DNA from: Clostridia bacterium
Lineage (GTDB): Bacteria > Bacillota > Clostridia > Oscillospirales > Butyricicoccaceae
DNA length: 64,000 nt
Direction of reading: 5' to 3'
NCBI GenBank assembly: GCA_017408985.1
Contig: JAFQTO010000064.1
Span: 1 to 64,000, forward strand
The notes beneath the pieces are model-generated. The model searched no databases. It saw nothing but the letters and a program-made list of their open reading frames with translations, and was not told where the DNA came from. How positions within the stretch are numbered: position 1 is the stretch's first letter; every line of letters starts with the position of its first letter. Shown here one piece after another: positions 3,166-21,150 of this stretch. Made by a program: the position numbers and the translations under genes.

Positions 3166-5367
3166 TTATGCCGCTATATCCGAGGGACTGGCGGTGCCTG
3201 TGCCGGGGCCGGGATCGGGAACGACGGGATCGGTACCGGTACCGGGATCGGGAGTAACGGTGCCGCCGGGATCACCGCCGGGAGTAGGATCTGTGCCCGT
3301 ACCGCCGGGGTTGGGATCGGTGCCCGTGTTTCCGGGATCATCGGGGGGATTGACGGTAAAGGTAGGCGAAGGCTCAACGGGCTCGTAGGGGTCGGCTGCC
3401 TGATTGGGGACGTCGGCTACGGTGCCCGCTCTCTCGTCGGTAGCGGGTACCTGCACCACTCTGTTATACTTGGTGTAGGTGCTTCTGGTGATATAGGTGC
3501 GGGAGACTTCCACGCCGTTTACATACTCAACTCTGTAGGTCTCGGCTTTGTAGCCGGTGTAGCCGCCTGCGATCTGCTTCTGTCCGTAGAGCAGGCCGAC
3601 TTCACCCTGATACTCCACCTGGAAGGGGGTCATGCTCGTTATGACAGTCTCGATGTCGATCTTCTTTTCGGGTTCGAGGTTGGTGCCGATGATGGATACG
3701 TCAAGCTGATGGTTTGCTGTATCGAATACGGTGACTATCTTGATGGGCCAGTCGGTATTGTTCTCAAACTGAAAATCCTTGTAGCCCCACGCAACGGTGG
3801 CATCCTGACCCAGAGGCACGTAGGTGACCATACGGCTGTGGGCATATCTCTCCACTATCTCAAGGTCGGCTCTCAGAGCACAGTAGTAGAGTGCCGAGCT
3901 GACCTGACAGATGCCGCCGCCCAGTCCGTCTTCGGCGCTGGTGCCCACGTAGACGGTGGCTTCCTTGAAGCCGCGGGCAGCAGTACGCTGACCGACGGTA
4001 TCGTTAAAGGAGAACACCTCACCGGGCATCAGGATAACGTTGTTGCAGAAGCTTCCCGCAAGTGTGACGTTGGTGGTACGGTTGGCGTTGTCGGTAAGAG
4101 GGGTATCGACACGGGAGAACTCATAGCTGAACAGCAGAGCCTCGTACTGCGCGTCGGTATAGGCGGGATACACGAAGGTGACGGGGATCTCAAGTATGCG
4201 GTCGGAGGAGGTATCCAGCAGCTGCTGTGCTGCTTCGGCGTCAAAGACGATACCCACCTGTCCGGGGGTGATGGTGTTGCCCGAGGGGTCATTTTTGAGA
4301 TCCAGCTGAGGCTCGATCATAGGACGCTCTATCTCTTCCTTGATGGCGATGAGGTCCAGGGTGTTGGTCTCGGTCACGTCAAGCTCAAATACCGCGGGAG
4401 TGAAATCGCCCGTGTACAGACGGTTCTTGACGAAGGTCAGCAGACGGTTCTTGTCCAGAGACAGTCCGATCTGACCGCGATCAAGGGTGACCTTCTGTCC
4501 GTCAAAGGAATAGGAGGCTCTCTCCACCGGCTGCTCAAGCTGGGAAGCCAGACGCTGGATCTGGGTCTCGATGCCCGAATCGGTAATGGAGTAGGCAAGG
4601 TCGATCTCGTAGCCGAAACGCATAGCCTCCACGATATCACGGACACGGGTGGAAAAATCTCCCTGTCTGCCGTAGAGGATGATCTTCTCCGCGGTGGAGC
4701 GGCTGTCATAGCTGATATTGCCTGCGATCTCCAAAACGTATACGTTGCCGCCGATGGTTATCTCAAGATCGCTGCCTGCAGGGACACCGCTGTACTTCTC
4801 GGTGAGCATGGCAAGCACCTCGCGCTTGGTGTAGCCCGAATAATCGACGCCGTCCACCCATACGCCGTCATAGACCTGCGAATAGAAATAGACGTGATAC
4901 ACCACGTAGCCGCCGAATGCGATAGCGCCGAACAGAATGAGCAGCAGCAGAGTGATGACCAAGGCTTTGACGACCTTGGCGCCTGCGCTGCGGGGACGCT
5001 CGTAGTAGTAATAATCGTCGTCCTCGTCATCATCGTCGTGTTCTTCCGTGTACACGGGCTTTTTGGGCTCTTTCTTCTGGCGTTTTTCTTTTTTGCTGAC
5101 CGGTTCAGCCATCCGCTCCAGCTCACTGTGAGGGATATTTACCTCCTGCGCGCTCTCCGCGGGGGCAGGGGTCTCCGCGGGGGCGGGAGTCTCCTGTGCC
5201 TGACCGAGGTCTATGGTCTGGGTCTTTTCGATCTCGGGCTGCCGGGCGGGGGCAGTCTCGGTCTGAACGGCTGTGTCTGCCGCAGTCTCCGTCCCGGGTG
5301 CCTGCTGAGAAGTTTCTTCGGCTTTATTTTCTTCTCCCGTTACGGGGTCTTTTTTGATATCTTCCAT
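3166..5367 (-). CDS. VanW family protein with membrane anchor, G5 domain and Gly/Pro-rich tail
   Basis: A 733-residue envelope protein. The N-terminal ~125 residues are cytosolic, rich in Ala/Pro/Glu/Thr and then strongly acidic (DDDDEDDDYYYY). One transmembrane helix follows at about 129-150. Next come two YoaR-like putative peptidoglycan-binding segments, the VanW domain at about 450-575 (FSFNDTVGQRT, GGGICQVSSALY, RYAHS) and a G5 domain at about 580-655. The last ~65 residues are a low-complexity repeat of Gly, Thr, Pro and Asp. AAAGGAGG lies 14 bases before the ATG. VanW/G5 proteins are thought to act at the cell wall; an enzymatic role is not established. It is monocistronic, with its own promoter and terminator. 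Confidence 0.88.
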   Translation of the reverse strand: MEDIKKDPVTGEENKAEETSQQAPGTETAADTAVQTETAPARQPEIEKTQTIDLGQAQETPAPAETPAPAESAQEVNIPHSELERMAEPVSKKEKRQKKEPKKPVYTEEHDDDDEDDDYYYYERPRSAGAKVVKALVITLLLLILFGAIAFGGYVVYHVYFYSQVYDGVWVDGVDYSGYTKREVLAMLTEKYSGVPAGSDLEITIGGNVYVLEIAGNISYDSRSTAEKIILYGRQGDFSTRVRDIVEAMRFGYEIDLAYSITDSGIETQIQRLASQLEQPVERASYSFDGQKVTLDRGQIGLSLDKNRLLTFVKNRLYTGDFTPAVFELDVTETNTLDLIAIKEEIERPMIEPQLDLKNDPSGNTITPGQVGIVFDAEAAQQLLDTSSDRILEIPVTFVYPAYTDAQYEALLFSYEFSRVDTPLTDNANRTTNVTLAGSFCNNVILMPGEVFSFNDTVGQRTAARGFKEATVYVGTSAEDGLGGGICQVSSALYYCALRADLEIVERYAHSRMVTYVPLGQDATVAWGYKDFQFENNTDWPIKIVTVFDTANHQLDVSIIGTNLEPEKKIDIETVITSMTPFQVEYQGEVGLLYGQKQIAGGYTGYKAETYRVEYVNGVEVSRTYITRSTYTKYNRVVQVPATDERAGTVADVPNQAADPYEPVEPSPTFTVNPPDDPGNTGTDPNPGGTGTDPTPGGDPGGTVTPDPGTGTDPVVPDPGPGTGTASPSDIAA

Positions 5368-12159: not shown

Positions 12160-13563
12160 ATGAATACCATAAAGATCTCGGATATATCTCTGCGAGTAAG
12201 CGATCAGGCACTTTCGTCCTCTCTCAGCTTCAAGGAGAAGCTGGAGATAGCCAAGCTGCTGGAAAAGCTGGACGTTGACGTTATTGAGACCGGCTACGTC
12301 ACCGAGGAGGCTGCCGACGCCGTTTTGATGCGCACTCTGGCATCCACCATCAAGAGCTCGGTGCTGAGCGCTCCCGTATATCCCGACACCGCATCGGTGC
12401 GACGCACCTTTGACGCTTTGCAGAAGGCTCAGAGCAAGCGCATCAATCTTATCGTTCCCACCTCCACCGTACAGATGGAGTACATCTACCATATGAAAGC
12501 CAAGGTAATGCTCGAGAAGATCGCCGAGTGCATCAGGCTGGCTGCCGAGCTGGGCGTTGAGGCTGAGTTTACCGCCGAGGACGCCACCCGCTCTGACAGA
12601 GATTTTCTGATCTCCGCCATTAACACCGCCGTTGAGTGCGGCGCGACTATAGTCACCCTCTGCGACACCACCGGCGAGATGCTGGCAGAGGAGATAGGCG
12701 CTTTCGTCAGCGAGCTGAAGGCTTCCTGCCCCGCTCTCGAGGGTGTCACCCTGTCCTTTGAGTGCAAAGACAATCTGGGTCTGGCATCAAGCGCCTGCCT
12801 GGCTGCCGCAAACGCAGGCGTAAAGCAGATCAAGGTAGCTTCCTGCGGCATCACCGGCTATACATCCCTGGAGAAGTTTATGCACATCCTGCAGGTCAGA
12901 CGTGAGACCCTCGGTTTTGAGAGCGGTCTCAAGTACACCGAGCTGCAGCGCACCTGCCAGCGTCTTGAGACGCTGACCGGCCACAGCGGCAGACTGAGCG
13001 CCTCCGACGAGGGCGATGAAAAGATCGAACTGACCACCGATTCGGATATGACCACCGTCCGCCGCCGTCTCAGCGCGCTGGGCTATGACGTATCCGACGA
13101 GGATATGGCAAAGATCTATACTCTGTTTATGGAGCTGGCCGCAAAGAAGAAGGTCGACGACCGTGACCTGGAGGCTCTGGTAGCCGAGAACGCACGTCAG
13201 GTCGCTCCCACCTATCAGCTGGAGAGCTTCGTTATCAACAGCGGCTCCTCCATCTCCTCCACCGCATTTATTCAGGTCAACCGCAAGGGCGTGCCCCTGC
13301 AGACCGTTTCCATAGGCGACGGCCCCATCGATGCCGCATTTTTGGCTATTGACCAGCTGCTGGGCCATCATTTTGAGCTTGAGGACTTCCGTATTCAGGC
13401 TGTTACCGAGGGCAGAGAGGCTCAGGGCGACGCCGTTGTCAAGCTGCGCGCAAACGGCAGACTGTATTCGGGCAGAGGTCTGTCCACCGACATTATCGAG
13501 GCATCCATCCGCGCATATCTGAGTGCCGTCAACAAGATCGTGTATGAGGAAAACGCAAGATGA
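12160..13563 (+). CDS. LeuA/homocitrate-synthase-like protein with altered catalytic motifs and intact LeuA regulatory domain
   Basis: A 467-residue HMGL-like TIM barrel (about 1-290), a linker, and a LeuA allosteric/dimerisation domain (about 355-460; GDGPIDAAFLAIDQ, GRGLSTDIIEAS). True isopropylmalate synthases start with DTTLRDGEQ; here it is D8-ISLR12-VSDQ16, so the Asp, Arg and Gln remain but RDGEQ has become RVSDQ. The metal-binding HxH before NDLG is E201-C-K203, and the later GERAGN motif is CGITGYT. It is therefore unlikely to be a normal 2-isopropylmalate synthase. Its stop overlaps the next start by ATGA. A related condensing enzyme, a lyase or a regulator are all possible. Confidence 0.8.
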   Translation: MNTIKISDISLRVSDQALSSSLSFKEKLEIAKLLEKLDVDVIETGYVTEEAADAVLMRTLASTIKSSVLSAPVYPDTASVRRTFDALQKAQSKRINLIVPTSTVQMEYIYHMKAKVMLEKIAECIRLAAELGVEAEFTAEDATRSDRDFLISAINTAVECGATIVTLCDTTGEMLAEEIGAFVSELKASCPALEGVTLSFECKDNLGLASSACLAAANAGVKQIKVASCGITGYTSLEKFMHILQVRRETLGFESGLKYTELQRTCQRLETLTGHSGRLSASDEGDEKIELTTDSDMTTVRRRLSALGYDVSDEDMAKIYTLFMELAAKKKVDDRDLEALVAENARQVAPTYQLESFVINSGSSISSTAFIQVNRKGVPLQTVSIGDGPIDAAFLAIDQLLGHHFELEDFRIQAVTEGREAQGDAVVKLRANGRLYSGRGLSTDIIEASIRAYLSAVNKIVYEENAR

Positions 13564-16067
13564 AGCTGAGTTTTTATACGGGCGGCTGGCCTAATATCTC
13601 ATGGAACGATGCCTGCATCCTCGCCGCCGATATGGAGTTGCAGGGCGTCGAACTGCTCTATTCCAAGGTAGAAGCCACTCCCCTGCTTGAGGGTGCAAAC
13701 GCAGGCAGCAACCGCAGGAAGTTTATCCGCGCATTCAACGAAGCCAATCTGGAGTGTCCCTGCATCACGGTAAACGTGGGCAAGGGCTCTATCGAAAGCG
13801 CACTTGCCGATGCAAGAAACTGCATCCATCTGGCAAGCCTGCTGCAGATCCCCAACGTATGTCTGGGTATGGACATTCTGGCCGACGAGGACGAACAGCG
13901 CATCGTCACCGTTATCGGTCAGCTGCTGCCCACCGCAGTGCAGTCCAACATAGTCCTGCTGGTGGAGACCTCAGGCATCTATGCCGACTCCTCCCGCATC
14001 TGCAAGATGCTGGACAGATTTGCCAGCGACAATCTGGCCGCTCTGTGGAATCTTCACGATCCCCACTATTACAATGACGAGACCCCCGACAAGACCATCC
14101 GCAATCTGGGCGCATACGTCCGTCACGTGCGTATCTGCGACTCGGAAAAGAGCGAAAACGGCCCCGTATACTGTCTGATGGGCGAGGGCGACCTGCCCGT
14201 TGAGAAGATCCTCGTGGCTCTGCGCAGTATCGACTACAAGGGTCACATCTCCCTCTGCCGCGCTCCCGAAAATGCAGGTATTACCGACACCGATATTATC
14301 CTTCCCCAGTTTACCAACGCTATGGAGATACACTCGGACAAGCAGCGCTCCCGCAAGGCTCTGTACGAGAACAAGACCGGCACAGGCAAGTTCATATGGC
14401 AGAAGGACGTGCTGCTGGATATGACCTTCTCTCAGGTGCTGGACACTCTGGTTGAGACCTTCCCCAACCAGTATGCATTCCGCTTCACCACCCTCAACTA
14501 CACACGCACCTACGAAGAATTCCGTGACGACGTTGACACCTTTGCCCGTGCGCTGGTAGCTCTGGGCGTAAAAGCAGGTGACAAGGTCGCCGTATGGAGC
14601 ACCAATCTGCCCCAGTGGTACATCTCTTTCTGGGCGACCGTCAAGCTGGGTGCCGTTCTGGTCACTATGAACACCGCCTACAAGATCCGTGAAGCTGAAT
14701 ACCTGCTGCGGCAGGCTGACGTACACACCCTCATTATGTGTGACAGCTACCGTGACAGCAACTACGTTGAGATCATAAAAGAGCTGTGCCCCGAGCTTCA
14801 GTATCAGGATGCAAACAAGCCCCTGCACTGCAAGCGCCTGCCATTCCTGCGTCACATCATCACCCTTGAGTCCAAGCAGAAGGGCTGTCTGACCTGGCAG
14901 GATGCCGTGGCGTTTTCCTCGCAGGTGCCCAAGGACGAGGTATACCGTCTTGCCGCCAAGGTGCATCCCGACGACGTGTGCAATATGCAGTACACCTCGG
15001 GTACCACCGGCTTCCCCAAGGGCGTTATGCTCACCCACCGCAACATCGTCAACAACGGCAAGTGCATCGGCGACCGTATGGATCTGTCCACCGCCGACCG
15101 TATGATGATCCAGGTGCCTATGTTCCATTGTTTCGGTATGGTTCTGGCTATGACCGCCGCAATGACCCACAGCGCTATGCTGTCACCCATCCCCTACTTC
15201 TCCCCCAAATCCTCCCTGGCCTGCATCAAGCAGGAGCGCATCACCTGCTTCCACGGTGTTCCCACCATGTTCATTGCCCTTTTGGAGCACAAGGACTTCA
15301 ACCCTGCCGATTTCAGCTATATGCGTACCGGCATTATGGCAGGTTCGCCCTGCCCCATCGCCGTTATGAAGGACGTGGTGGAAAAGATGAATATGAAGGA
15401 GATCACCATCGTCTACGGTCAGACAGAGTCCTCCCCCGGCTGTACCATGTCCAGCACCGACGATCCTCTGGACGTCCGTGTTGCCACGGTCGGCAGACCT
15501 CTGCCCGAGATCGAGTGCAAGATAGTCGATCCCGAGACCGGTCTTGAGTGCCCCGACGGCGTAAACGGTGAGTTCGTTGCACGCGGCTACAACCTGATGA
15601 AGGGTTACTACAAGATGCCCGACGCCACCTCCTCCACCATTGACGCCGACGGCTGGCTGCACACCGGCGACCTTGCCTGCCGCACACCCGAGGGCAACTT
15701 CCGTATCACCGGCAGACTGAAAGATATGATAATCCGCGGCGGTGAGAACATCTACCCCAAGGAGATCGAGGAGTTCCTCTACACCCATCCCAAGATTAAG
15801 GACGTTCAGGTCATCGGCGTGCCCTCCGAGCAGTTTGGCGAGGAGATCATGGCAAGCATCATCCTCAAGCAGGGTGAAGAAATGACCGAAAAAGAGGTCA
15901 AGGATTACGTCTACGCCAATATGGCAAAGCACAAGGTCCCCTCCTTTGTGGACTTTGTGGACGCATTCCCCATGAACGCCGCAGGCAAGATCCTCAAGTA
16001 CAAGATGCGCGAGGATGCTGTCAAAAAGCTGGGTCTGCAGAAGGCCGCCTCCATCGAAACCGCGTAA
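13560..16067 (+). CDS. Fusion of a sugar-isomerase-like TIM barrel with an AMP-forming acyl-CoA synthetase
   Basis: An 835-residue two-domain protein. Residues 1-270 look like an AP-endonuclease-2/xylose-isomerase-like TIM barrel. Likely metal ligands are E136 (LVETSG), D167 and H170 (HDPH) and H189 (VRHVRICD); the usual last glutamate position is C233 (ISLCR). From about 290 on it is a complete ANL-family acyl-CoA ligase: T479-SGTTG, YGQTESSPG, GWLHTGDL, RLKDMIIRGGENIYP and the catalytic K810 (NAAGKILK). The ligase half should make an acyl-AMP and then an acyl-CoA. ATGA overlap with the LeuA-like gene suggests the two act together. The substrate is unknown. Confidence 0.85.
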   Translation: MKLSFYTGGWPNISWNDACILAADMELQGVELLYSKVEATPLLEGANAGSNRRKFIRAFNEANLECPCITVNVGKGSIESALADARNCIHLASLLQIPNVCLGMDILADEDEQRIVTVIGQLLPTAVQSNIVLLVETSGIYADSSRICKMLDRFASDNLAALWNLHDPHYYNDETPDKTIRNLGAYVRHVRICDSEKSENGPVYCLMGEGDLPVEKILVALRSIDYKGHISLCRAPENAGITDTDIILPQFTNAMEIHSDKQRSRKALYENKTGTGKFIWQKDVLLDMTFSQVLDTLVETFPNQYAFRFTTLNYTRTYEEFRDDVDTFARALVALGVKAGDKVAVWSTNLPQWYISFWATVKLGAVLVTMNTAYKIREAEYLLRQADVHTLIMCDSYRDSNYVEIIKELCPELQYQDANKPLHCKRLPFLRHIITLESKQKGCLTWQDAVAFSSQVPKDEVYRLAAKVHPDDVCNMQYTSGTTGFPKGVMLTHRNIVNNGKCIGDRMDLSTADRMMIQVPMFHCFGMVLAMTAAMTHSAMLSPIPYFSPKSSLACIKQERITCFHGVPTMFIALLEHKDFNPADFSYMRTGIMAGSPCPIAVMKDVVEKMNMKEITIVYGQTESSPGCTMSSTDDPLDVRVATVGRPLPEIECKIVDPETGLECPDGVNGEFVARGYNLMKGYYKMPDATSSTIDADGWLHTGDLACRTPEGNFRITGRLKDMIIRGGENIYPKEIEEFLYTHPKIKDVQVIGVPSEQFGEEIMASIILKQGEEMTEKEVKDYVYANMAKHKVPSFVDFVDAFPMNAAGKILKYKMREDAVKKLGLQKAASIETA

Positions 16068-17044: not shown

Positions 17045-18235
17045 TCAATCCAGTTCTTTCAGCGCTTCGGGGAATGGGGCGAGGGAGCGGCGGAGGATGC
17101 CGTTCATATGGGCGATGGCGACGCCGTAATTGGTCATAGGCACGTTTGCGTCCATAGCGCATCGGGTGCGCCACAGCATTTCCCGCTCATTCAGCATACA
17201 GCCGCCGCAATGGATAATAAGCTTATATCCGCTGACGTCCTCGGGGAAGTCGCCGCCCGAGGTGAAGTCTATCCGTATCTCCTTGCCGCCCGTGTGTTTT
17301 CTTATCAGCGCGGGCAGCTTGACCGTGCCGATGTCGCCGCACTGGCGGTGGTGGGTACAGCCCTCGGAGATAAGCACTCTGTCTCCGTTTTGCAGCTTGT
17401 CCAATTGAGCGGCGCCCCGTGCGGCAAAATTAAGGTCGCCCTTATACCGCACGAACAGTATGGAGAAGCTGGTGAGGGTGATATCCTCGGGCACGATTTT
17501 GGACACCCTGCCGAATGCCTGAGAGTCGGTGATGACAAGCTTGGGCTTTTTGCCGAGAGTCTTGAGTGTGTCTGCAAGCTCCTCGGGCTGACAGACGATA
17601 GAGCTTGCGCCTGAGTCAAGAATATCCCTGATAGTCTGCTGCTGGGGCAGGATAAGTCTGCCTTTTGGCGCACTCTCGTCTATAGGGGTGACAAGCACAA
17701 CGAAGTCGCCTTTTTCAATAAGGTCGGCAACCACCCGCTTGGTGTTCTGTTTCGGCGCGGCGAGACGCGCTATCTCGGCTTTCAGCTGCTCTATGCCCTC
17801 GCCTGTTTTGGCGCTGACACACAGCTTGCCCTCTGCGTGAGCAAGGTCACACTTGTTATAGACCAAAATATATGGTATCTCTTTTTGCCCAAGGAGCTGC
17901 ACAAGCTTTTTTATCTGCTCGTTTTCGCCCTTTTGGGCATCCACCACCACAACGGCAACGTCGGTGCGGTTAAGCTCGCGCATAGCGCGTTTGACACGCA
18001 TAGCGCCCAGCTCGCCCTCATCGTCCAGACCGGGAGTGTCGATAATGACCACGGGGCCCAGGGGCAGCAGCTCCATTGTTTTTTTGACCGGGTCGGTGGT
18101 AGTGCCCGCAAAATCGGACACGATAGCCACGTTCTGACCCGTCACCGCATTGACGATGCTTGATTTGCCCGCGTTGCGCATACCGAAAAAACCGATATGC
18201 ACACGCTCGGCCGAAGGTCGCGAGTTCAGGCTCAT
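17045..18235 (-). CDS. hydF: [FeFe]-hydrogenase H-cluster maturation GTPase HydF
   Basis: A 396-residue scaffold protein that receives the diiron subcluster made by HydE and HydG and transfers it to apo-hydrogenase. The N-terminal Ras-like GTPase shows GMRNAGKSS, the switch threonines in GTTTDP, DTPG and NKCD. The C-terminal Fe-S ligands are CTHHRQC and HCGGCM, the HydF signature. GAGGAG lies 7 bases before the ATG, 11 bases after the hydG stop. It is the last gene of the maturation operon. Confidence 0.95.
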   Translation of the reverse strand: MSLNSRPSAERVHIGFFGMRNAGKSSIVNAVTGQNVAIVSDFAGTTTDPVKKTMELLPLGPVVIIDTPGLDDEGELGAMRVKRAMRELNRTDVAVVVVDAQKGENEQIKKLVQLLGQKEIPYILVYNKCDLAHAEGKLCVSAKTGEGIEQLKAEIARLAAPKQNTKRVVADLIEKGDFVVLVTPIDESAPKGRLILPQQQTIRDILDSGASSIVCQPEELADTLKTLGKKPKLVITDSQAFGRVSKIVPEDITLTSFSILFVRYKGDLNFAARGAAQLDKLQNGDRVLISEGCTHHRQCGDIGTVKLPALIRKHTGGKEIRIDFTSGGDFPEDVSGYKLIIHCGGCMLNEREMLWRTRCAMDANVPMTNYGVAIAHMNGILRRSLAPFPEALKELD

Positions 18236-18246
18236 ACTCTCACTCC

Positions 18247-19695
18247 TCAGAATCTGAAATCCCGTCGGTTGGACTGACGGATGGCGGCTATGTTCTCCTC
18301 GGCTATTTTGCGAGTCTTTTCGGTGGGGACCTTTTTGATTTCTCTGTCGATAAGCTCATAACCGAGCTTTTTTGTCTCCTCGCTTGCGTAGTCCTCAAGG
18401 TACTCGCTGAGGGTCATCAGCGCGTTGGGGTGGCAGCAGTTGAGTATCTGGCCCGTTTTGCATAGGCTCATAAATCTGTCGCCCGTTCTGCCCTCGCGGT
18501 AGCAGGCGGTGCAGAAGGAGGGTATGTGACCCAGCTCCATCAGCCAGCGGACGACCTCGTCAAGGGTACGCTGGTCGGACACGTCAAACTGCTCGCTGTC
18601 GTGTGGGCGTTCCTCCTCGGTGTAGCCGCCTACAGAGGTGCGGGATGCGCCGCTGATCTGGGATATACCCAGGCGGAGGGCTTCGCCCCTGACCTTTTCG
18701 GACTCGCGGGTGGAGATTATCATACCGGTATAGGGCACGGCAAGGCGGATGCAGGCGATGATCTTCTTGAAAATCTCGTCGGAGATGGAGTTGTCGAATA
18801 CGTTGGGGTCGATATCGTCGGCGCGCTTGATACGGGGCACCGAAATAGTGTGGGGACCGACACCGTGAACGGCCTCAAGATGCTCGGCGTGCATCAGCAG
18901 GCCTGCAAACTCATATCTGTACAGCTCAAGTCCGAACAGCACGCCCAGACCTACGTCGTCGATGCCGCCCTCCATAGCTCTGTCCATAGCCTCGGTGTGG
19001 TAGCAGTAATCGTGCTTGGGTCCCGTGGGATGAAGCTGCTCGTAGCTCTCTTTGTGGTAGGTCTCCTGGAAGAGAATATAGGTACCGATGCCCGCATCCT
19101 TGAGCTTGCGGTAGTTCTCCACGGTGGTAGCGGCAATATTGACGTTGACACGGCGGATAGCGCCGTTTTTGTGGTTGACGCTGTAGATGGTCTTGATGCA
19201 CTCAAGAATATACTCGATGGGGTTGTTCTTGGGGTCCTCGCCTGCTTCGATGGCAAGGCGCTTGTGTCCCATATCCTGCAGTGCGATGACCTCAGCCTTG
19301 ACCTCCTCCTGGGTCAGCTTTTTGCGGGCGATATGCTTGTTCTTGGCATGGTAGGGGCAATAAACACAGCCGTTGACGCAGTAGTTGGACAGATAAAGGG
19401 GTGCAAACATAACGATACGGTTGCCGTAAAACGCCTGCTTGATCTCCTCGGCTATCTCGTACATACGCTCTACCTTTTCGGGGATTTCGCAGGCAAGCAA
19501 GACCGACGCCTCACGGTAGGTAAGACCCCGGCAGGTGCAGCCGTTGCCCTGCTTTTGAGGACGGGCTTTTTCTAAAAGCTCGTCAATAAGCTCGACGTTA
19601 TTTTTGTTCTCGTCGGCGTAGCGCAGGGTGTCAAGTATTTCCTCGTGGTTGATAAACTCCTCGGCTTTGAGGGAATTAAGATCAAATTTAGCCAT
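18247..19695 (-). CDS. hydG: [FeFe]-hydrogenase H-cluster radical SAM maturase HydG
   Basis: A 482-residue radical SAM tyrosine lyase that makes the CO and CN ligands (as an Fe(CO)2CN synthon) of the hydrogenase H-cluster. The radical SAM cluster motif is CVNGCVYC. The C-terminal auxiliary cluster region is visible as FCTACYREGRTGDRFM followed by NCCHP. Its start overlaps the hydE stop by eight bases, with AAAGGAG in the hydE end. The length is typical of HydG and excludes ThiH. Confidence 0.96.
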   Translation of the reverse strand: MAKFDLNSLKAEEFINHEEILDTLRYADENKNNVELIDELLEKARPQKQGNGCTCRGLTYREASVLLACEIPEKVERMYEIAEEIKQAFYGNRIVMFAPLYLSNYCVNGCVYCPYHAKNKHIARKKLTQEEVKAEVIALQDMGHKRLAIEAGEDPKNNPIEYILECIKTIYSVNHKNGAIRRVNVNIAATTVENYRKLKDAGIGTYILFQETYHKESYEQLHPTGPKHDYCYHTEAMDRAMEGGIDDVGLGVLFGLELYRYEFAGLLMHAEHLEAVHGVGPHTISVPRIKRADDIDPNVFDNSISDEIFKKIIACIRLAVPYTGMIISTRESEKVRGEALRLGISQISGASRTSVGGYTEEERPHDSEQFDVSDQRTLDEVVRWLMELGHIPSFCTACYREGRTGDRFMSLCKTGQILNCCHPNALMTLSEYLEDYASEETKKLGYELIDREIKKVPTEKTRKIAEENIAAIRQSNRRDFRF

Positions 19696-20740
19696 TTTTC
19701 TGCTCCTTTTTTATATCTCCGCGGCTCACGACTACTGTGTAGCCGGCTGCCTTTATTCTATCTTTAAGCTGTTTGAGTGCCTGGGCGCTTTCGGTACCCG
19801 TGTGCAGTTTGTTGTTATACAAAGTATATTTTTCCCGTGCCGACACAGGCGACAGATTGGGCATGACCACGTTGGCGCCTGCCCTGAGCCCCATTTCCCT
19901 GCCGTCGGGGATGATACTGCCCAACGCGGTGGTGGCGGGAAGCAGTATATTTGGCTTCATCAGCCGTATTATGCTCAGAAGAAAGCAGGTCAGGTATGCG
20001 CTGCCCGCCGTTTTATCACGAAAAGGCGTATCTTTGTGTGGGATAAACGGGCCAATGCCGCACATATCGGGGTCAAATTTCTCGATAAACCTGAGGTCGC
20101 GGGCGATATGCTCACTTGACTGATAGGGCGAGCCCACCATAAAACCGCATCCCACCTGATAGCCGATAGCTTTGAGCGCGTGCAGGCACTCAAGGCGGGT
20201 GCTGAGGGTCAGCTCGCTTGGGTGCAGGCGGCTGTAATGCTCTCCGTCTGCCGTTTCGTGGCGCAGCAGGTAGCGGTCGGCTCCCGCATCAAAAAGCCGC
20301 TTGTAGCTGTCATAGGAGCGCTCGCCCAGCGACAAAGTCACAGCGCAGTCGGGATGCTCGCTCTTGATGGCTCTGACTATACTCTCTACCCGCTCGTCGG
20401 TATAGTAACCGTCCTCGCCACCCTGCAGAACGAAGGTGCGAAAACCCAGCCCGTAACCCTCGCGGCAGCAATCGAGGATGTCGCTCTCGGTCAGTCGGTA
20501 GCGGTCACAGCTTGTGTTGCTGCGGCGGATACCGCAGTAGAGGCAGTCGTTTTTGCAGATATTGGATATCTCGATAAGACCGCGGACAAAGACCGCATCC
20601 CCGTACACCTGCCGCCGAACACGGTCGGCGCGGCTTGCGGCGTATTCTGCAAGCTCGGGTGTGTACCCCTCCACAAGCTGTCTGTACTCACTCTCGGTCA
20701 GACTGTGCTCACGCTCAAGCCTGCTTATCAGCTCAAGCAT
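19688..20740 (-). CDS. hydE: [FeFe]-hydrogenase H-cluster radical SAM maturase HydE
   Basis: A radical SAM enzyme of about 350 residues that acts with HydG and HydF on the diiron subcluster. It shows ISNICKNDCLYCGIR (the CxxxCxxC cluster site), VLQGGEDG and LRHETA, all usual in HydE. Two starts are possible. A GTG at 20749 gives VSRMLEL; the ATG at 20740, nine bases after AAGG, gives MLELISRL, closer to known HydE starts, so I use it. It overlaps the TM1266-like gene by 8 bases. Confidence 0.94.
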   Translation of the reverse strand: MLELISRLEREHSLTESEYRQLVEGYTPELAEYAASRADRVRRQVYGDAVFVRGLIEISNICKNDCLYCGIRRSNTSCDRYRLTESDILDCCREGYGLGFRTFVLQGGEDGYYTDERVESIVRAIKSEHPDCAVTLSLGERSYDSYKRLFDAGADRYLLRHETADGEHYSRLHPSELTLSTRLECLHALKAIGYQVGCGFMVGSPYQSSEHIARDLRFIEKFDPDMCGIGPFIPHKDTPFRDKTAGSAYLTCFLLSIIRLMKPNILLPATTALGSIIPDGREMGLRAGANVVMPNLSPVSAREKYTLYNNKLHTGTESAQALKQLKDRIKAAGYTVVVSRGDIKKEQKNG

Positions 20741-21002
20741 CCTGCTCACCCTTGGTTATCACGTTGGAATAGGCGGTCTTGACGCTGACCCCTTTGAGCT
20801 TTCCTATTCTTCCGCTGAGGGTGGATATAACGTCCTGGGGCGCGTCGATGGCAACGCTGAGGATGCTGATGTTCTTTTTGCGGTAGGGCACGCCCATTCT
20901 GCCGATCATCCATATGCCGTACTCACTGAGAAGTCCGTTGAGCTGTTCCACCGAGGACATATCCTCTACTATGATGCCCATAACGGCCACACGTGTTTCC
21001 AT
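20733..21002 (-). CDS. TM1266-type putative iron-only hydrogenase system regulator
   Basis: An 89-residue protein with a single ferredoxin-like/ACT-like fold (METRVAVMGIIVED, then ISILSVAIDAPQDVISTLSGRIGKLKGVSVKTAY). This matches the TM1266 family, found next to [FeFe]-hydrogenase maturation genes and named as a putative regulator by context only. It is the first gene of the operon. AAAGGAG (21011-21017) is 8 bases from the ATG. It has no DNA-binding domain, so if it regulates, it may sense a ligand or bind a partner. Confidence 0.85.
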   Translation of the reverse strand: METRVAVMGIIVEDMSSVEQLNGLLSEYGIWMIGRMGVPYRKKNISILSVAIDAPQDVISTLSGRIGKLKGVSVKTAYSNVITKGEQDA

Positions 21003-21115
21003 AAAAACCGCTCCTTTACTGCAAACAAAAAAGCCGCACCCAAAAAGGCGCAGCTATACCGTGATCAATATATCAGCACCTTTCACTCAGGGTAAAAAAG
21101 CCTTTATGTCAGGAT
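21003..21115 (-). promoter_or_regulatory. hyd operon leader with terminator and competing antiterminator pairing
   Basis: Between promoter and first gene lies a 110-base leader. Near its end GCTGCGCC (21054-21047) pairs with GGTGCGGC (21040-21033) and is followed directly by six T, an intrinsic terminator inside the leader. Upstream, AAGGTGC (21082-21076) can pair with GCGCCTT (21051-21045), seven base pairs including one G-T, and would break the terminator stem. That is the architecture of an attenuator or riboswitch. I do not recognise a known class. Confidence 0.55.
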
Positions 21116-21121
21116 ACCTAT

Positions 21122-21150
21122 ATAATATAACTATTCGTTCGGTTTGTCAA
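21122..21150 (-). promoter_or_regulatory. Promoter of the hyd maturation operon
   Basis: On the minus strand TTGACA (21150-21145) and TATTAT (21127-21122) are 17 bases apart. Transcription should start near 21115. Confidence 0.8.

Follow-up and report, generated by a model that had tools for sequence, protein, structure and literature searches.

A conserved leader hairpin before H-cluster assembly genes of Clostridia, a putative off-switch

How the assembly of [FeFe]-hydrogenase is regulated is, to our knowledge, little known, and we know of no function of the TM1266 protein beyond that of a 'putative regulator'; the protein was found in 237 of the 391 genomes that we sampled from the class. 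The window analysed here, a stretch of 64,000 nucleotides from a Clostridia bacterium whose genome assembly comprises 2.0 Mb and is 84.5% complete, carries a TM1266-family gene at the head of an operon of hydrogenase maturation genes, and the leader of this operon raises the question of whether it acts as a switch and what such a switch might recognise. A sequence-only reading had proposed a riboswitch or attenuator controlling these genes, and to the extent that a test is possible this proposal is correct.

The operon and its leader

The features concerned, all on the minus strand of the window, are the following.

21150-21122, minus strand: promoter, with TTGACA at 21150-21145, a 17-nt spacer and TATTAT at 21127-21122
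21115-21076, minus strand: putative sensor hairpin of about 40 nt, conserved and pseudo-twofold-symmetric (homologues in many genomes, covariance-model matches, covarying helix)
21113-21101 and 21091-21079, minus strand: the two strands of this hairpin, CCUGA-CAU-AAAGG and CCUGA-GUG-AAAGG, with the loop between them
21083-21076, minus strand: AAAGGUGC, hairpin 3' strand and predicted antiterminator 5' strand (own-versus-swapped complementarity, nascent-RNA folding)
21051-21044, minus strand: GCGCCUUU, terminator 5' arm and loop, predicted antiterminator partner of AAAGGUGC
21055-21032, minus strand, with a U-tract to 21026: intrinsic terminator AGCTGCGCCTTTTTGGGTGCGGCT, 10 bp of which 6 are GC, -17.0 kcal/mol
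21017-21011, minus strand: ribosome-binding site AAAGGAG of the TM1266 gene, by inspection
20733..21002, minus strand: TM1266-family gene, ATG at 21002, 89 aa (TIGR03959, 106 bits against a cutoff of 60.8)
19688..20749, minus strand: hydE (TIGR03956, 553 bits), overlapping the TM1266 gene by 17 nt
18247..19695, minus strand: hydG (TIGR03955, 930.8 bits)
17045..18235, minus strand: hydF (TIGR03918, 551.6 bits)
16868-16843, minus strand: operon-end terminator, probably bidirectional (11 bp, 8 GC, listed on both strands)

The promoter matches the consensus at 11 of 12 positions and ranks first among 10 promoter-like sites across 11 kb; judging from its spacing, the transcript is expected to start at about 21116. 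The four genes overlap or are closely spaced and are all clear by NCBIfam. The TM1266 family is labelled 'iron-only hydrogenase system putative regulator' (PF21699/TIGR03959; PDB relative 2NZC), and the protein consists of a single 89-aa domain without a DNA-binding domain. The near-consensus promoter, the intrinsic terminator as the last leader hairpin ahead of the ribosome site, the competing pairing of AAAGGTGC (21083-21076) with GCGCCTTT (21051-21044), the identity of the downstream genes and the absence of a DNA-binding domain from TM1266 had all been recognised correctly from the letters alone; the main feature of the leader, the conserved pseudo-symmetric hairpin containing AAAGG, had been missed.

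Elsewhere in the window there are a ribosomal protein L10 leader (RF00557, 53725-53870, minus strand, 56.1 bits) and, at 13560-16067 on the plus strand, an 835-aa open reading frame with an acyl-CoA ligase at residues 282-827. The N-terminal part of this product, about 280 aa, has no listed match and looks sugar isomerase-like by eye.

Conservation and covariation of the hairpin

Leaders of TM1266 homologues were gathered from the genome of the window and its relatives (90 loci), and about 40 of them have in common the motif CUGA-nnn(n)-AAAG-loop-CUGA-nnn(n)-AAAG. The hairpin is built, in this order, of CU/AG pairs, a GA/AA internal loop, a helix of 3-4 bp, an AA/GA loop, AG/CU pairs and the apical loop. 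The nnn(n) stretches pair with each other, as CAU/GUG in the window and as CGGG/CUUG, CCUG/CGGG, UAUC/GAUA, CACC/GGUG, UACC/GGUA or CUU/GAG in others, so that the helix between the loops covaries freely while the GA/AA loops themselves are nearly invariant.

Because MAFFT, applied to all 30 leaders, misregistered the 3-bp against the 4-bp helices, the first model was restricted to the 22 leaders with a 4-bp helix. From this 22-sequence alignment RNAalifold gave the hairpin structure unprompted; 95% of the cells are paired, against 80.7% after shuffling and at most 55% when the strands were slid, and 7 of the 10 pairs change on both sides. Changes on both sides were counted in 36 cells, compared with 11.2 in shuffled alignments, and none of 500 shuffles reached 36. 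A covariance model from whose training the window sequence had been left out detects the window hairpin with 24.1 bits (E 1e-4), and a second model, trained on the window sequence as well, scores it at 34 bits; the E-values are rough owing to short calibration, and whole-genome searches with these models lose weak copies. Several loci (L068, L073, L075, L078-L088 and L099) have two hairpins in a row, the conserved loops of the first copy being altered to CCGA/AAGG or CUUU, and in the first copies of L068, L073 and L075 the otherwise invariant U5-A36 pair becomes C-G. Fifteen candidate loci were set aside as chance or coding matches.

A scan of 84,980 species genomes, with a DNA pattern in which most loop bases were fixed but one pair of the helix and the pair closing the loop could take any combination, matched at least 80 loci. 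Among the 80 matches listed, the variable helix pair is CG in 41, UA in 35, UG in 3 and CA in 1, and the loop-closing pair is AU in 74 and GC in 6, without a single mismatch. These counts include related genomes and do not represent independent events; both pair states occur across distant groups. Of the listed matches 76 precede H-cluster genes or their companions, and 4 look like chance occurrences in unrelated sequence. Judged by their record titles, the hosts among them include Oscillospiraceae, Lachnospiraceae and other Clostridia, Loigolactobacillus, Agrilactobacillus, Erysipelotrichia, Lentisphaerae and Desulfovibrio. Butyricicoccus pullicaecorum is an example of an isolate that bears the motif. 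Most of the genomes are MAGs and the evidence is comparative throughout; within these limits the riboswitch criterion of a conserved, structured 5'-leader aptamer with compensatory changes is met.

It is hardly tenable that the leader is a T-box, works by a leader peptide or belongs to the riboswitches and protein-binding leaders described so far. The nearest approach to a catalogued family is the PyrR leader (RF00515), the top weak Rfam score by bits, with 21.5 bits (E 0.73) against a gathering score of 54; no family of Rfam 15 reaches its gathering score in the window leader or in the leaders of 33 homologous loci, and permissive E-values also returned nothing. By inspection the leader contains no T-box sequence, and there is no ATG in it ahead of the gene. 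In the open-licence literature we found no report of a hyd-operon riboswitch. By all the sequence evidence the hairpin would represent a new RNA of an uncatalogued family, serving as an off-switch for the H-cluster assembly genes.

The terminator and its competitor

A downstream terminator of -10 kcal/mol or lower accompanies 67 of the 76 matches among those listed, whereas 4 of 76 have one once the sequence downstream is shuffled, and a terminator is present in 101 of 110 homologous leaders. In these 101 leaders the hairpin 3' strand pairs with its own terminator 5' arm at a mean of -12.8 kcal/mol and with swapped arms at -9.4 kcal/mol (p 1e-18); in a few importer leaders (L177, L186, L213) there is little antiterminator pairing. 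The alignment of related leaders, which had been suggested as a check, found both competing pairings conserved and covarying, and the lack of conservation that would have refuted the proposal was not encountered. Since the hairpin and the pairings are conserved, chance is excluded. On these pairings the leader also meets a second riboswitch criterion, namely an expression platform that is mutually exclusive with one state of the aptamer.

In stepwise folding of the window transcript the consensus hairpin is the best structure at 40-70 nt; at 76 nt, once the terminator 5' arm has emerged, the base of the hairpin gives way to the antiterminator, and a binder locking the hairpin should therefore cause termination. 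The complementarity leads to the same inference: because the 3' strand complements the terminator 5' arm, with own pairs beating swapped ones, the hairpin and the antiterminator cannot coexist, and the OFF state is expected on binding. We propose that a small molecule or ion connected with H-cluster assembly binds to the hairpin of about 40 nt with its two symmetric GA/AA loops. In the bound state the hairpin would retain its 3' strand (AAAGG...), the 5' arm of the terminator would stay free, the terminator would form and TM1266-hydE-hydG-hydF would be silent; when unbound, AAAGGUGC would invade GCGCCUUU, the antiterminator would form and the operon would be transcribed. In two hydG leaders the ribosome site is formed by this same 3' strand (GAAAGGUGG or GAAAGGAGC), an arrangement predicted to have the same OFF polarity by another route.

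In the unbound state the antiterminator, at -19.0 kcal/mol, is stable by itself, as would suit a constitutive attenuator or 5' mRNA stabiliser in which the hairpin and the terminator set basal expression and sense nothing. The near invariance of the loops beside a freely covarying helix speaks against such an element, and the presence of tandem copies, together with the wide distribution of the element ahead of a single pathway, favours a recognised ligand; we regard the constitutive explanation as very unlikely. What the sequences establish is the hairpin with its covariation, the conservation of the competing pairings, the terminator and the regulon, and the element, although there are no binding or expression data, is very probably a genuine conserved switch, whether bound by a small molecule or by TM1266.

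Comparable systems offer parallels to both kinds of binder. In PyrR-binding pyr leaders and other protein-controlled terminator attenuators a leader hairpin likewise excludes an antiterminator and binding leads to termination; the PyrR-type attenuators are also alike in that the first gene may encode the binder, but their sequence and structure differ. The RAT sites of the LicT/SacY/BglG family are short pseudo-symmetric hairpins whose two internal loops suit a dimer, and they resemble the present hairpin. However, a RAT overlaps the terminator and its binding prevents termination, whereas our hairpin overlaps the antiterminator and its binding is predicted to cause termination. Small OFF-type riboswitches, for instance preQ1-I and HMP-PP, share with our element the single compact aptamer that feeds a terminator or ribosome site, the importer and biosynthesis genes downstream and the tandem copies in some genomes; in contrast to them, the present hairpin has no Rfam sequence or structure match and no evident pseudoknot.

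The regulon and the nature of the binder

Among the 76 matches listed, the first gene is TM1266 in 55, NifH-like in 6, hydF in 5, hydE in 5, a FecCD permease in 2, SsuA-like in 2 and BtuF-like in 1. Three operon types are seen: TM1266-hydE-hydG-hydF, with hydG in 27 loci among the matches listed; TM1266-FecCD permease-ATPase-hydE-NifH/D/K-like-BtuF, with nitrogenase-like genes in 21 of them; and TM1266 with an SsuABC-like importer. HydG and nitrogenase-like genes occur together in none of the 76 listed loci (p 2e-5, incomplete loci included). In the class sample the motif also heads hydG and, at one locus, a gene that by its sequence encodes aspartase, an enzyme recently linked to H-cluster assembly (PMC11736057). 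Specific support for an iron or SAM-related ligand, as had been suggested, is lacking: the genes around the motif direct attention to the H-cluster pathway and to ABC importers of two kinds, and the SAM riboswitch families gave no Rfam match.

The mutual avoidance of hydG and nitrogenase-like genes was followed in the TM1266-bearing hydF-positive, hydG-negative genomes of the 391-genome sample, after two genomes with hydG pieces at contig ends or split had been reassigned to the hydG-positive group. A NifD-like protein is present in 15 of 20 hydF-positive, hydG-negative genomes, against 2 of 35 with hydG, where the match is distant in both, and 0 of 25 that lack the two maturases (p 1e-7). Six hydG-less genomes that are at least 99% complete have HydA and HydF. 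It is possible, as an inference, that the nitrogenase-like proteins stand in for HydG and constitute a HydG-independent H-cluster route; since three genomes with TM1266-hydE-hydF have neither hydG nor a NifD-like protein, the replacement is not universal.

Operons of NifH/NifD/NifK-like genes under the RNA, often with FecBCD-type importers and without hydG, were noted at nine loci and others. An SsuA/NMT1-type ABC importer of unknown substrate stands alone or after TM1266 at ten loci. The TM1266 leaders of one genus (eleven loci) are of a different, long and conserved type, GCGCAGGCAGA...CACTGCAAACC...TGTACCGACCCGCAAGGAG...CCTGACGGAAAAGAC with a terminator, which has no Rfam match, could not be forced into the motif and may be a further regulatory RNA of these genes.

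The reading that we favour, with no more than even confidence, is a feedback OFF-switch of an uncatalogued kind, in which a small molecule or ion related to H-cluster assembly is bound by the hairpin directly; the binding, the polarity and the ligand, which may be an intermediate or input of the assembly, are all inferred. It rests on the motif heading ABC importers and enzymes away from TM1266 and occurring in tandem. At four loci it lies between TM1266 and the next genes, and at one of these it also precedes TM1266. In one genome it heads hydG and TM1266 was not found, which counts in the same direction; this MAG is 97% complete, and since HydA is missing too, the absence of TM1266 may be an assembly gap. 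Against a small molecule stand the presence of TM1266 in 21 of 22 motif genomes, the exception being an 81%-complete MAG, and the simplicity of the hairpin, whose symmetry and lack of a junction or pseudoknot are no less typical of a site bound by protein.

The binder may instead be TM1266 itself, as the sequence-only reading had also allowed: a ferredoxin-like oligomer (ACT/NikR-C type) that would sense its own ligand, bind the hairpin and attenuate its own operon and a small regulon in the manner of PyrR, a possibility that we hold tentatively but take seriously. Its place as first gene in most of the listed matches and its co-occurrence with the motif fit this idea, as do the name of regulator borne by a protein without a DNA-binding domain and the twofold pseudo-symmetry of the RNA, which suits reading by a dimer. 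Among hydG-bearing genomes the motif occurs in 17 of 189 with TM1266 and 1 of 49 without, a difference that is not significant (p 0.13). In a residue comparison aimed at an RNA-binding signature, a basic residue 68 is commoner in motif-associated TM1266 (27 of 33 against 10 of 23 clusters, p 0.004 uncorrected), an effect lost after correction for about 85 columns. The MAG in which TM1266 was not found speaks against the protein, with the caveat just given, and so does the occurrence of TM1266 without the motif in most genomes, TM1266 being present in 237 and motif candidates in about 50. Moreover, ABC-transporter ATPases with a C-terminal TM1266-like domain were observed at six loci (for example at 3336-4427, plus strand, in L142). 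This domain recalls others that sense ligands, NIL of MetN being one, and its position suggests that it senses the transported compound, pointing away from RNA.

Returning to the small-molecule reading, the three operon types could be joined in a bolder proposal: the hairpin would be the first riboswitch for an organometallic-cofactor intermediate, sensing a compound common to the routes through HydG, through nitrogenase-like NifH/D/K with the FecBCD-type importer and through the SsuABC-type importer, with the nitrogenase-like operon as a HydG-independent H-cluster route. As a whole we consider this proposal speculative and rather improbable. Since the shared element also marks importers and nitrogenase-like operons, it places genes whose role is unknown alongside the H-cluster pathway and suggests that HydG has an alternative, and a compact RNA of this kind makes the signal that governs H-cluster synthesis in gut fermenters testable, with candidate ligands and with TM1266.
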